Below, in pieces: positions 38,614 through 44,493 of a stretch of 64,000 bases of DNA. Position numbers and translations under genes: made by a program. Source of the stretch: Methanosphaera stadtmanae (GTDB taxonomy: Archaea; Methanobacteriota; Methanobacteria; Methanobacteriales; Methanobacteriaceae); contig SUTQ01000004.1 of assembly GCA_015062805.1 (NCBI GenBank), positions 59,539 to 123,538 of the forward strand, written 5' to 3'. The stretch's first letter is position 1. Each line of letters opens with the position of its first letter. The notes under the pieces were generated by a model. The model was not told where the DNA came from. It worked only from the letters and a program-made list of their open reading frames with translations, and searched no databases.

Positions 38614-39237
38614 ATGAATAAAATGAACATTGTAGGTATTGGTCCGGGTGACAAAGAATATTTAACATTAGGTGCAATAAAAACTATTGAAAGCTCAGAT
38701 GTATTGGTGGGTAGTCAAAGATCATTGGATTTATTTGATTATTTGGATGCTAAAATGGTCGTTTTAGAACCTAGAGATATTCCAAAAACAGTTAAAATGG
38801 CAGTATCTTATCTTGATGATGGTTTAAAAGTATCTGTTTTATCCACAGGTGATCCGGGATTTAGTGGAATGCTTAAAACAATACAAAAATTGTCTCCAAA
38901 AACTAAAGTAAATGTAATACCGGGAATTAGTTCAGTTCAACTAGCTGCAGCAAAAGTACAAATACCATGGGACACAGCAAATCTTTTAACTATTCATGGT
39001 GGTAAAGCTCCTACAGACGATTTACTAGAAAGGCTGGATAACACAAGACCAAATATCGTACTTCCTAATAGGCATATAAGTGAGTTAGCAGAATATTTGA
39101 TAGAACATGGTTACAGTCCGGAACATGAAATAACTATCTGTGAAAAATTAAGTTATCCTGATGAACAGATAGTTCAAGTCACATTGGGTGAAGCAGTAAA
39201 TATGGACTTCGGTTACATGTGTGTAGTAATAATATAA
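38614..39237 (+). CDS. cbiE: Cobalt-precorrin-7 (C5)-methyltransferase
   Basis: 207-residue SAM-dependent tetrapyrrole methylase of the anaerobic cobalamin pathway. Family marks: V-G-I-G-P-G-D-K-E-Y-L-T at the N terminus, S-T-G-D-P-G-F-S-G near 86, and I-P-G-I-S-S-V-Q-L-A-A near 110. CbiE alone, without the CbiT domain, as usual in archaea. ATG with GGGTGA 7 bases upstream. Cobamides are needed for methanol and methyl-H4MPT:CoM methyl transfer. Confidence 0.93.
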   Translation: MNKMNIVGIGPGDKEYLTLGAIKTIESSDVLVGSQRSLDLFDYLDAKMVVLEPRDIPKTVKMAVSYLDDGLKVSVLSTGDPGFSGMLKTIQKLSPKTKVNVIPGISSVQLAAAKVQIPWDTANLLTIHGGKAPTDDLLERLDNTRPNIVLPNRHISELAEYLIEHGYSPEHEITICEKLSYPDEQIVQVTLGEAVNMDFGYMCVVII

Positions 39238-39409: not shown

Positions 39410-40600
39410 ATGTTACAAATTGCGGTAACAGGTAAACCAAATGTAGGTAAATCCTCATTTTTTAATTCAGCAACATTATCTGAAGCGGAAGTTGCAAATT
39501 ATCCGTTCACAACAATAGATGCAAATGCAGCAATAGCTTACGTAACTGCTGAATGTCCATGTAAAGAATTAGAAATTATATGTAATCCAAGAACTGGTAA
39601 ATGTGAAGAAGGTATAAGATACATTCCAGTTGAACTTATTGATGTAGCAGGTTTAGTACCTGGTGCATATGAAGGAAAAGGTTTAGGGAACAAATTTTTG
39701 GATGATTTAAGTCAAGCCAGAGCATTAATTCATATTATTGATGCTTCCGGTGGAACGGATGCTGAAGGAAATCCTTGTGAAGCTGGGACACATGATCCAT
39801 TGGATGATGTAAATTTCCTTAAGCATGAAGTTACAATGTGGGTATATTCTATATTGGAAAGAAATTGGCCTAGACTTATTCGAAAAGTTATGAGTGAGCA
39901 TCTTAATTTTGCAAAAGTTATTTCTGAACAATTAACTGGAGCAGGAGTATTATTGGATGATGTTATAGAAGCAGAACGTATCATGGATAGTGACTATGAT
40001 AAATGGGAAAAAGATGATATGTTACGTTTTATTGATAAGATATTGGAATCTGCAAAACCAATAATTATCGTTGCAAACAAAATTGATACTCCTCAAGCAG
40101 AAAATAACATTAAAAGACTTAAGGAAAAATATGACCAAGTTATTCCAACAAGTGCAGAGTCTGAATTGGCATTGGTCAATGCAGCTAAGGCAGGACTTAT
40201 TAAATATCATTCAGGTGAAGACCATTTTGAAATACTTGATGAATCAAAATTATCTGATAAACAAAAGATGGCACTTAATTACATTGACGAGCATGTTCTT
40301 AAAAAATATGGGTCTACTGGAATACAAGAAACTATTAATAAGGCCGTTTATGAAACTTTAAATAATATAGTGGTTTATCCTGTAGAGGATGAACATAAGT
40401 TTTCTGACCAAAAAGGTAACATATTGCCTGATGCATTGTTAGTACCAAAAGGTTCTAATCCAAGAGATTTGGCATATTGTATACATACAGATATTGGAGA
40501 CGGTTTTACTCATGCCATTGATGCAAGACGTAACATGAGAATATCTAGTGAACAAGAACTAAAACAATCAGATATCATTAGTATTATAGCAAATAAGTAG
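39410..40600 (+). CDS. ychF: YchF/OLA1-type redox-regulated ATPase (Obg family)
   Basis: 396-residue P-loop protein: G-K-P-N-V-G-K-S-S at 7-15, D-V-A-G-L-V-P-G-A near 83, N-K-I-D near 223, and a C-terminal TGS domain (about 310-396). YchF proteins hydrolyse ATP in place of GTP and associate with ribosomes. ATG with AAGGAG upstream. It lies 10 bases before the cfbD-partner gene, so the three may be cotranscribed. Confidence 0.94.
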
Positions 40601-40610
40601 GTGTTTTAAT

Positions 40611-41777
40611 ATGAAAGCATTAATCTATGCTGATTATGAAACAGATTTAAATAAGTATCAAAATTTAAATTCAGATGTAATAGTGTATGATGAAACAGGG
40701 ATTTTAAATACGGAATTTGAAAAAACGGATTCTATAGAAATGTTTTCAAATGTTGATGCAGTAATATTTACACAAAATTGTATTGTAAATGGTGAATATG
40801 ATACTAGTAAATTAAAGGAAGCATGTATTAAAATACAAAACTGTGTATTGGATGAAGTATTGTTGATTTTTGATACAAGAGTACCCCCACGAACAGTACT
40901 AAAAATGTCAAAAGTTATAGATGAGTATGGATTAATTCCGGACATTAAATTAGTGTATACTACAGTAATTAATGATAATTTAAGGATAATTGCAGGTAAG
41001 AATGACTATTGTCTACAAAAGGCAGTTAATTTGTATGAAACTATGGGCAATGAAATAAGGACGGTTAAACATATACAGACAGCAGAATTCATACCTATTC
41101 TTCAAAATGCATATAAGGATGCTTTAGTGGCATTAGCGAATGAAACGGCAATTTTGTCTGAAGCTTTAACAATTGATTTAACAGAAGCAATTGATGTTGC
41201 AAATACTGGCGAAAATATTCATCTATTGTATCCTCAACCAATACTTAAAAGTGAAATTTCCCGTGATTCTGAGGAAATAAATAATTTGGCAAATGAATAT
41301 GGTGAACCATCACAACTGTCAGAAACTATTAGGAATACAAATAACTATGTTGCATATCATATGGCATATATGGCTGAAAAAGAGTTATACCTTAAAGAAC
41401 ACCTTGCAATGTTTGAAACTACCGTAGCAATACTTGGTATAACTGAAGATGATGAATTGATTTCGGAAAAGGATAATTCTTCCCTTACATTAATAGATGA
41501 TTTCGTTAGCCGAGACGTAGAAGTATGGGCACATGATGATAAAGTTCCGAAAGATATAATTGAAGAACATGGGGCAAAAAAAATTTCTTTGGAAGAAGCC
41601 TATGAAGCTGACTGTATAATAGTAATGTTAGATACTGAAGAATACAGGCAATTAAATCCTGAAAAAATTGAAAAAGTGATTATAACCGCTTTACCAATGT
41701 TTGATCAAGAAAAATTTGAAAATGTTAAATATAGTTGTGTAGGTCATTACAGATTAAAAGAAGGTGAAATGTTATGA
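40611..41777 (+). CDS. UDP-sugar-dehydrogenase-like protein of unknown function, coupled to cfbD
   Basis: 388 residues. The middle (about 160-225, [21 protein letters not shown]) resembles the dimerisation helices of UDP-glucose/GDP-mannose dehydrogenases. The C-terminal third (V-A-I-L-G-I near 271, followed by [11 protein letters not shown]) resembles their UDP-binding domain. The N-terminal third lacks the glycine-rich NAD motif and the catalytic Cys region, so dehydrogenase activity is doubtful. AGGTG precedes the ATG. Its stop overlaps the cfbD start by 4 bases (ATGA), implying translational coupling, so I infer a link to coenzyme F430 synthesis or handling. Confidence 0.65.
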
Positions 41778-42838
41778 TTCATCCAAGACCAAGCCCTATA
41801 GCTGCAGCTCTTTACACATTAAGGGATTTAGAAGTGGATGTAATAATTATGCATGGACCAGCGGGGTGTTGTTTTCGTACTGGAAGATTACTTGAAGATG
41901 AAGGAATAAGAGTAATCACAACAGCAATGAATGAAAATGATTTTATTTTTGGAGCAAGTGAAAAATTAGTCGAAACTATTAGGGAAGTTGAAGAGACATT
42001 TCATCCAGAAAATATCGGAATTGTAGGTACTTGTGCAAGCATGATTATTGGAGAAAACATGAAAAATGATGCACAGGAAGCTGGAATTGATGCAAATATA
42101 ATAATAGTTGAAACACATGGAGGTTATGAATCAGGTGATAATACTGCAGGTGCAATTCAAGCATTGAAAGCTGCAAATGATGCAGGATTAATTTCTGAGG
42201 AAGAAGTTGAAAGACAATCGGAAATGCTTCAAAAAGCAACAGAATTAGAAAAAAGCAGGGGAATGGCTAAAGGTACATATATTAAACCAAACTATGGTGA
42301 TAATAAAGTTAAAGTTGCAAAAGAGATACTTGAATATTTGGAATCATGTAAAAAAGTATCAATGGTTCTCAATGCTAAGAAAGAGACAAGTTATCTTTTT
42401 GCTGATATAATGACTATTGATTGGTCAAAATATTATCCAAATAACAGCCCAATTTATGTTTCAAATACAGATGAGGAAATAGGATTGCCTTACATTAAAC
42501 ATCATGCAAAAACTGTAAACGAAACCATCAGTAAAAAATCAGATTATATAACTGGAGGATTGGATGAATACCCAGTAACTGGAATTAAGGCAGAAGAAGT
42601 ATTAAACGAACTAAATTCGGATTTAACAATTGTATTGGGTGTACCTCATGCAGTTGATGTTACAAAGATTCCAGGTAAAACAATTGCAGTAACTGATGGT
42701 CCAAGATTAGTTGAACCATTAAAACAGATGGGTTTTGACTATGTTGTCACTGAGTTGGATGCTCATTCTAAAACATTGGGGGCAAATTCAATAGTTGAAT
42801 CAGAATTTGCACAAACAATTAGAGGATTGTTAGAATAA
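41774..42838 (+). CDS. cfbD: Ni-sirohydrochlorin a,c-diamide reductive cyclase subunit CfbD
   Basis: 354 residues, the NifD-like subunit that with the NifH-like CfbC reduces and cyclises Ni-sirohydrochlorin a,c-diamide on the way to F430, the nickel cofactor of methyl-CoM reductase. Recognised from [14 protein letters not shown] at the N terminus, [10 protein letters not shown] near 28-37 (cluster-type cysteines) and [10 protein letters not shown] near 80. Its ATG overlaps the preceding stop. cfbC is not in the window. Confidence 0.92.
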
Positions 42839-42945
42839 TTGAAAATTAAACATTTTTCAAAAATTAATTAAAAAATAAAACAAAATATAATACCTATGAA
42901 TAAGATATATATTCATAATTTAAAATATCAACACAGGTGAATTCA

Positions 42946-44493
42946 TTGAATATAGTAATTATAGGAGCAGGAGCTTCAGGACTAACTGCCGCATCAAATA
43001 TTAGAAAATACGATGACGAATCTCAAATAATAGTATTTACTACACAAAAACACGTAGCATACTCTCCATGTGCAATTCCTTATGTAATAGGGGGGCACAT
43101 AGATAGTTTTGATGATATTATTATGCATAAACCAGATGAATACATGCGTAAAAATATCAGAATACTCACTGAAACGGAAGTTACAGAAATCAATAATGAT
43201 ATTACTGAATTAACGTATGTAGATAAGAAAGGAAACAAACAAAACTTAAAATATGATAAATTAGTCATTGCAACAGGTGGAAAACCGTTAATACCACCAA
43301 TACCAGGAAAAGACTTGGAAGGAGTTTTCAAAGTTAGAACAGTTGAAGACGGTGAAGATATACTCGCATACTCTCAAAAATGTGAAAATGTTACTCTAGT
43401 TGGTGGTGGGGCAATAGGATTGGAACTTGGTTCTGAATTAGCGAATAAAGGAATTAAAGTAACAATTGCTGAAATGATGCCACAATTATTCCCAAGATCA
43501 TTCGATCAGGAGATGTCTGATAAATTCCAAGAACACCTTCAGGGAAAAAACATTGAAATATTAACCAGTTCTGCAGTAGAATCAATCAACGGTGAGACTA
43601 AAGTAGAATCAGTTACAATTGATGGTGTTGAAAAACCGGCAGATATGGTGATTTTATCCACGGGTATAAGACCACAAACAGAATTGGCAGAAAGTATTGG
43701 ATGTGAACTAGGACAATTTGCAATTAAAGTAAATCCACATATGGAAACATCATTACCAAATGTTTATGCTGCAGGGGATTGTGTTGAAGTAACAAATGCA
43801 GTTACAGGAGATATAACTCTTTCACCATTAGGAACAACTGCAGTAAGACAAGGTATTATCTTGGCTAAAAACTTAGCAGGACATGAAATCGATTTCCAAC
43901 CAGTACTCAACTCCACAGTATCACAGATAGGAGGTATGGAAATGGGAGCAGTTGGTATTACACAACAAGAATCTGAAAAATTGGGAATACCTGTTGTTGT
44001 AAGTACCATAGAGTCATTAAGTCGTGCAAGATACTATCCTGGAAGTAAACCATTATTCCTTAAATTAATTGCAAAAACAGATGGAACAATTATTGGATGT
44101 CAAATGTTCGGTCAAGAAGCAGTAGCTGAAAGAGTAGATACAATGACAGCAATAATGTCACAAAAATTAACATGTAATGATGTAGTTTCAATGGAATTCT
44201 CATATGCACCACCTGTATCACAAGTAATTGATCCAATTGCAAAGGCAGCTGAAGAATGTCTTGAAAAAATAGATGCACTTGATGAAGAATGTGACTGTGA
44301 TGTTAAAGAGGAACCTGAAGCACCTGTGGAAGAAACTACTGAAAAAGAAGTTAAAGAAGAACCTGTAGAAGAAGTTGAAGAAACCACAGAAAGTACTGAA
44401 GAAACTTCTGAAGAAGAAGCAACTAATGAAGAACCTAAAGAAAAAGAAATGACCTTCCCTGAATACTTAAGAAGTCAAGGATTAATTAATTAA
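42946..44493 (+). CDS. CoA-disulfide reductase / NADH oxidase-like flavoprotein with acidic C-terminal tail
   Basis: 515 residues. FAD motif I-I-G-A-G-A-S-G at the start, a redox Cys in Y-S-P-C-A-I-P-Y near 44-49, a second NAD(P)H motif V-G-G-G-A-I-G-L-E-L near 150, and an A-A-G-D-C-V-E-V FAD motif near 278. This is the pyridine nucleotide-disulfide oxidoreductase group of CoADR, NADH oxidase and NADH peroxidase. After residue ~445 comes a Glu-rich low-complexity linker of about 55 residues ending in T-F-P-E-Y-L-R-S-Q-G. I prefer TTG 42946 (AGGTGA 5 bases upstream) to GTG 42937. A role in oxygen or disulfide handling is likely. Confidence 0.82.
   Translation: MNIVIIGAGASGLTAASNIRKYDDESQIIVFTTQKHVAYSPCAIPYVIGGHIDSFDDIIMHKPDEYMRKNIRILTETEVTEINNDITELTYVDKKGNKQNLKYDKLVIATGGKPLIPPIPGKDLEGVFKVRTVEDGEDILAYSQKCENVTLVGGGAIGLELGSELANKGIKVTIAEMMPQLFPRSFDQEMSDKFQEHLQGKNIEILTSSAVESINGETKVESVTIDGVEKPADMVILSTGIRPQTELAESIGCELGQFAIKVNPHMETSLPNVYAAGDCVEVTNAVTGDITLSPLGTTAVRQGIILAKNLAGHEIDFQPVLNSTVSQIGGMEMGAVGITQQESEKLGIPVVVSTIESLSRARYYPGSKPLFLKLIAKTDGTIIGCQMFGQEAVAERVDTMTAIMSQKLTCNDVVSMEFSYAPPVSQVIDPIAKAAEECLEKIDALDEECDCDVKEEPEAPVEETTEKEVKEEPVEEVEETTESTEETSEEEATNEEPKEKEMTFPEYLRSQGLIN

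Follow-up and report, generated by a model that had tools for sequence, protein, structure and literature searches.

What does a dehydrogenase-like protein do directly in front of cfbD, a gene of coenzyme F430 synthesis, in a methanogen of the genus Methanosphaera? The question is raised by a stretch of 64,000 nucleotides from Methanosphaera stadtmanae (contig SUTQ01000004.1; hereafter ‘the window’), in which an open reading frame, here called the pseudo-dehydrogenase, lies between the gene of a YchF-type GTPase and cfbD. The closest locus to the window is that of Methanosphaera sp. Tb.RUG.228 (93% identical). A 388-residue protein whose stop overlaps the cfbD start by four bases had been announced by the original prediction, and the coordinates and frames of this junction proved exact, the overlap reading ATGA. 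The features concerned are the following:

39410 to 40600, + strand: archaeal YchF-type GTPase (NF007171, 588 bits), upstream neighbour in 19/19 Methanosphaera genomes.
40599 to 40603, + strand: AGGTG, Shine–Dalgarno (SD)-like sequence ahead of the pseudo-dehydrogenase; it overlaps the stop codon of YchF (read from the sequence).
40611 to 41777, + strand: pseudo-dehydrogenase open reading frame, 388 aa, Methanosphaera only (ATG at 40611, TGA at 41775-41777).
40611 to 40964, + strand: truncated N-terminal Rossmann-like domain (alignment with 30 intact enzymes; AlphaFold).
41076 to 41345, + strand: central helical (dimerisation) domain, residues 156-245 (PF00984; motif table).
41295 to 41417, + strand: most conserved stretch, residues 229-269 (EYGE...R..N.YVAYH..Y.AEKEL.LK..L...E; column conservation).
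41475 to 41705, + strand: C-terminal UDP-binding-type Rossmann domain, residues 289-365, without YKG...R (PF03720; motif table).
41761 to 41767, + strand: AAGGTGA, SD of cfbD within the last pseudo-dehydrogenase codons (KEGEML; read from the sequence).
41774 to 41777, + strand: ATGA stop/start overlap of the pseudo-dehydrogenase and cfbD (read from the sequence).
41774 to 42838, + strand: cfbD, Ni-sirohydrochlorin a,c-diamide reductive cyclase catalytic subunit, 354 aa (TIGR03282).

The protein is almost certainly a pseudoenzyme of the UDP-N-acetylmannosamine (UDP-ManNAc) dehydrogenase family. Dimerisation helices and a UDP-binding-like C-terminal domain, both expected beforehand, are retained: PF00984 matches the central domain of the pseudo-dehydrogenase (5.8e-11; 42.8 bits versus a cut-off of 25.4) and of 9/9 orthologs tested, and PF03720 reaches 29.6 bits against a cut-off of 30 (9.1e-07) in the C-terminal domain, its fold being recognised in 9/9 orthologs at E values up to 0.1, with the YKG...R residues lost. 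The Pfam scan returned no match to the N-domain. The nearest NCBIfam families are nucleotide-sugar dehydrogenases, all far under their cut-offs (TIGR03026: 97 bits, below 189.8; NF040825: 68.7 bits, below 750). Alignment by hhalign with six intact Methanobacteriales enzymes gave a probability of 100% and an E value of 1.1e-41 over 317 columns, and the best solved relatives are the UDP-ManNAc dehydrogenases 4r16 and Cap5O. Foldseek, run with the AlphaFold model, also placed 4r16 first (E 9.3e-14), the central domain of this model being unreliable: built from a 9-row alignment, it has a mean pLDDT of 62.5, with approximately 75-90 over residues 1-85, less than 50 at 156-269 and good outer domains. 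Residues approximately 35-380 are homologous to UDP-ManNAc dehydrogenases of the WecC/Cap5O type (NF040825, TIGR03026; 4r16, 3ojl), with which the protein has in common the three-domain order, the central helical domain and the C-terminal Rossmann fold, and from which it differs in length (388 versus approx. 430 aa).

What it does not share with them is the catalytic apparatus. The missing N-terminal glycine-rich NAD motif reported by the original prediction is indeed deleted. In an alignment that set 18 distinct orthologs beside 30 relatives with intact motifs, Cys, Lys and Glu of the active site and the UDP-loop Lys/Arg proved to be lost too. None of the 18 orthologs has the Gly-rich loop (GLGHIGLP), which all 30 enzymes possess; it was deleted, together with the following helix, after residue 7. 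The catalytic-Glu loop (PERALP...) shows the same distribution (absent 18/18, present 30/30), its deletion lying after residue 118. The catalytic Lys of EMVKLMEN occurs in none of the 18 orthologs versus all 30 relatives, with Pro in its place in 16/18 and the Asn of the same motif retained in 14/18. Likewise, the catalytic Cys of GxGGHC is found in 0/18 orthologs versus 30/30 enzymes, the Cys loop (GxGGHCxxxDP) being swapped for a different 10-residue stretch, and the Lys/Arg of YKG...R are absent from 18/18 orthologs and present in 30/30 relatives. Judged by these motifs, the pseudo-dehydrogenase is catalytically dead and, because the motifs are missing, NAD binding and sugar oxidation would both have been lost. 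In this respect it resembles pseudoenzymes in general, which lose catalytic motifs while fold and surface are conserved (PMC10211241). The literature searched yielded no pseudoenzyme among the nucleotide-sugar dehydrogenases.

The adjacency to cfbD that might have been expected in all Methanobacteriales is confined to Methanosphaera (19/19 genomes with cfbD) among 150 genomes. cfbD itself was detected by TIGR03282 in 142 of these 150, and a profile search retrieved full-length orthologs of the pseudo-dehydrogenase (at least 469 bits) solely from the 19 Methanosphaera genomes; the other matches listed are dehydrogenase-sized frames of at most 189 bits, and no such frame lies beside cfbD in the 20 loci examined from other genera. 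The twentieth Methanosphaera genome (77% complete) has neither cfbD nor the pseudo-dehydrogenase gene. When the most specific 89-residue stretch was searched against 152 genomes of the phylum, Methanosphaera was again the only genus recovered, no ortholog being found among these genomes in other genera, though those genera have cfbD. A scan of 84,980 species, which detects close relatives only, yielded Methanosphaera-type loci only. This distribution rules out a general F430 factor: other searched genera manage without the gene, so F430 synthesis as such does not depend on it, and the pseudo-dehydrogenase is at most a genus-specific partner. Accordingly, the original prediction stands where it described an uncharacterised, cfbD-coupled dehydrogenase-like protein without an active site, and falls where it proposed an unrecognised F430 accessory gene of general occurrence.

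Substitution for a missing cfb gene is ruled out too. F430 is made from sirohydrochlorin by an established five-gene pathway, whose five known steps suffice (PMC7242693). The CfbA, CfbB, CfbC, CfbD and CfbE families all score above curated cut-offs in the window's own genome, so the pseudo-dehydrogenase replaces no missing step, and it matches no Cfb family in the NCBIfam scan. It differs from the pathway genes in being restricted to a single genus, but overlaps one of them. Concerning this gene set, we also noted, besides a single-domain CfbA candidate (G000:C15:2060-2587), a frame of 300 aa in which two CfbA-type matches follow one another (G000:C20:85301-86161); a second NifH-like protein of approximately 295 aa in four Methanosphaera genomes (G067:C59:81308, G102:C39:4089, G021:C2:10295 and G094:C77:122; 347-354 bits versus the CfbC cut-off of 402); and, in one Methanosphaera genome, a CfbE match in two pieces with internal stops (G016:C2:53828-55139), due to a sequencing error or to a disrupted gene.

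The order YchF, pseudo-dehydrogenase, cfbD is found in 19/19 cfbD-bearing Methanosphaera genomes. The flanks of this trio are less stable, as the link of YchF to CbiE (38614-39237 in the window, 5' of the YchF gene) is broken in four genomes and that of cfbD to a CoA-disulfide reductase in two of the readable genomes. The latter gene, at 42937-44493 in the window, encodes a flavoprotein resembling CoA-disulfide reductases, whose long C-terminal tail is acidic and of low complexity; across Methanosphaera, the whole frame is 480 to 597 aa long. In several other genera (loci L092, L093, L100, L104 and L105), the YchF gene stands directly 5' of cfbD, at distances of 4-73 bases and without a pseudo-dehydrogenase, which argues that the pseudo-dehydrogenase gene entered a pair that already existed. 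On the other side of cfbD, a sugar-1-phosphate nucleotidyltransferase gene follows directly in several Methanobacteriales genera (Methanothermobacter-like) and in the Methanosphaera genome G050, examples being L101:8074-9081 and L086:56-1081; it overlaps cfbD by four bases in the Methanothermobacter-like L101 and is followed by HisH in genomes other than G050. The tie of cfbD to a sugar-nucleotide gene is old.

The junctions within the trio are tight. In the window, 10 bases separate the YchF stop from the pseudo-dehydrogenase start, and GGTG/GGAG sites similar to AGGTG precede most orthologs. The identity of CfbD is certain (TIGR03282: 549.9 bits versus a cut-off of 268.4), and its SD and start are formed by the final pseudo-dehydrogenase codons, AAA GAA GGT GAA ATG TTA TGA, which are conserved at the DNA level; most orthologs have GGTGA/GGAGA or GAGGA at the SD position. 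The two genes overlap by four bases in 18/19 Methanosphaera genomes and by one base in the most divergent, G050. Since the ATGA overlap is kept in 18/19 genomes and is rare among same-strand neighbours inside the window (2/38), it goes beyond chance. Such an overlap implies translational coupling, and the pseudo-dehydrogenase and CfbD are, on the strength of this junction, very probably co-translated. As evidence of function, adjacency kept within one genus is weak.

Phylogenetically, the orthologs fall into a single clade (100/100) whose stem is very long (2.7 changes per site in the first tree) and which lies within or beside the Methanobacteriales UDP-ManNAc dehydrogenases. The tree prefers native Methanobacteriales enzymes as the nearest to this clade; grouping it with Methanosphaera's own dehydrogenase is not rejected (AU p 0.34), leaving no firm sister relation, and descent from that enzyme by duplication would be compatible with the test while not being the placement preferred. 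An intact paralog is present in the same genome (G000:C41:19517-20587, L040), away from cfbD, with all catalytic motifs, 441.6 bits to TIGR03026 and 31% identity to pseudo-dehydrogenase residues 37-379. A sugar-nucleotide or cell-wall pseudoenzyme might regulate, or hetero-oligomerise with, a real nucleotide-sugar dehydrogenase of this kind, its place before cfbD being accidental. The descent of the protein, its dimerisation domain, which is among its best-kept parts, and the old nucleotidyltransferase gene near cfbD in Methanothermobacter-like genera and G050 are consistent with such a role. However, the close dehydrogenase paralog is missing in G016, G020, G030, G081 and G123, all of which keep the pseudo-dehydrogenase; G020 is one closed contig, and G030 gave no other dehydrogenase matches. 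These five genomes weaken the case for an obligate partner of the intact paralog and argue that the pseudo-dehydrogenase is not simply its regulatory subunit. Overall, we regard a role of this kind as rather unlikely.

Co-option for a new ligand or for an unrelated client, such as the YchF GTPase or the ribosome, with a role in the methanol + H2 lifestyle of Methanosphaera, appears fairly unlikely as well. The linkage to YchF is as tight as that to cfbD (10-base gap, adjacency in 19/19 genomes), and its evolutionary rate correlates weakly with those of YchF and CfbB (uncorrected for multiple tests), which points in the same direction; against this, no ligand site can be named, and the central domain of the model has a pLDDT below 50 at residues 156-269.

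The gene is under strong purifying selection. For the better-resolved pairs, dN/dS is 0.046-0.157, similar to or up to approximately twice that of CfbD (0.039-0.112), and a full-length frame is open in 19/19 genomes. Genus-wide, 83 residues are invariant, most densely in the helix linking the central to the C-terminal domain and in the C-terminal domain itself, with 20 invariant columns within 217-270 (19 orthologs); the N-terminal region is poorly conserved. The stretch of residues 229-269 is specific to the pseudo-dehydrogenase family and is, from its conservation, likely a binding surface. A protein that is so well conserved, and yet has lost all its catalytic parts, probably binds or regulates something. 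The C-terminal KEGEML is a special case: it embeds the SD and start of cfbD, so its conservation need not mean protein function, and G050, where the cfbD junction differs, lacks it. A gene on its way out, retained only for the translation signals at its end, could account for this detail, but is highly improbable given the full-length frames, dN/dS of approximately 0.05-0.16 and the invariant residues; the open frames and dN/dS rule out a pseudogene. Equally far-fetched is a still active enzyme whose active site or cofactor has been rebuilt: conserved polar residues (D88, R94, K98, E159, D170 and H250) might be invoked in its favour, but the dinucleotide and catalytic-Glu loops are deleted and the Cys, Lys and Arg have no equivalents.

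Could CfbD itself be what the protein binds? Of 156 otherwise conserved columns in CfbD, eight have changed specifically in Methanosphaera, with R240 changed to Y in 19/19 genomes, against four of 172 such columns in YchF; relative to other genera, CfbD is somewhat faster than YchF (distance ratio 2.0 versus 1.55). The changes in CfbD are weakly compatible with adaptation to a partner. Branch rates of the pseudo-dehydrogenase and CfbD correlated in a small panel (rho 0.68), a signal that was gone once the controls were improved (rho −0.11 to 0.07); the known pair CfbC-CfbD, used as a positive control, gave no signal in the better panel either, so the rate test lacks power and counts neither way. 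In the literature searched, no paper names cfbD together with F430 and Methanosphaera.

The explanation that we tentatively favour is a pseudoenzyme found only in Methanosphaera, encoded between YchF and cfbD, whose translation is tied to that of CfbD and whose role is non-catalytic. Having branched from the archaeal UDP-N-acetylmannosamine dehydrogenases and lost its catalytic motifs, it settled between YchF and cfbD on the Methanosphaera stem and has been retained there by selection. Ribosomes finishing the pseudo-dehydrogenase would restart on cfbD by means of the embedded SD and the ATGA, a mechanism suggested by the junction sequence. The protein itself would most likely be a non-catalytic, dimerising binding protein, with the conserved long central helix as its contact surface. 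The likeliest client may be CfbD, for which the protein would act as a folding, stability or regulatory partner peculiar to the genus; we hold CfbD as the client to be possible, if doubtful. The strongest form of the proposal, in which Methanosphaera has turned a dead UDP-ManNAc dehydrogenase into an obligatory subunit accessory to the nitrogenase-like CfbD and added it to the five-gene pathway, is unlikely.

Should CfbD turn out to be its client, the pseudo-dehydrogenase would count as a lineage-specific F430 reductase partner, of which no example was found in the literature searched, and could help to explain why such a partner is needed in one methanol-reducing gut genus. In practice, automatic annotation is likely to mislabel the protein as an active dehydrogenase. 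Whatever its client, it represents a well-defined, conserved pseudoenzyme branch of the nucleotide-sugar dehydrogenases.
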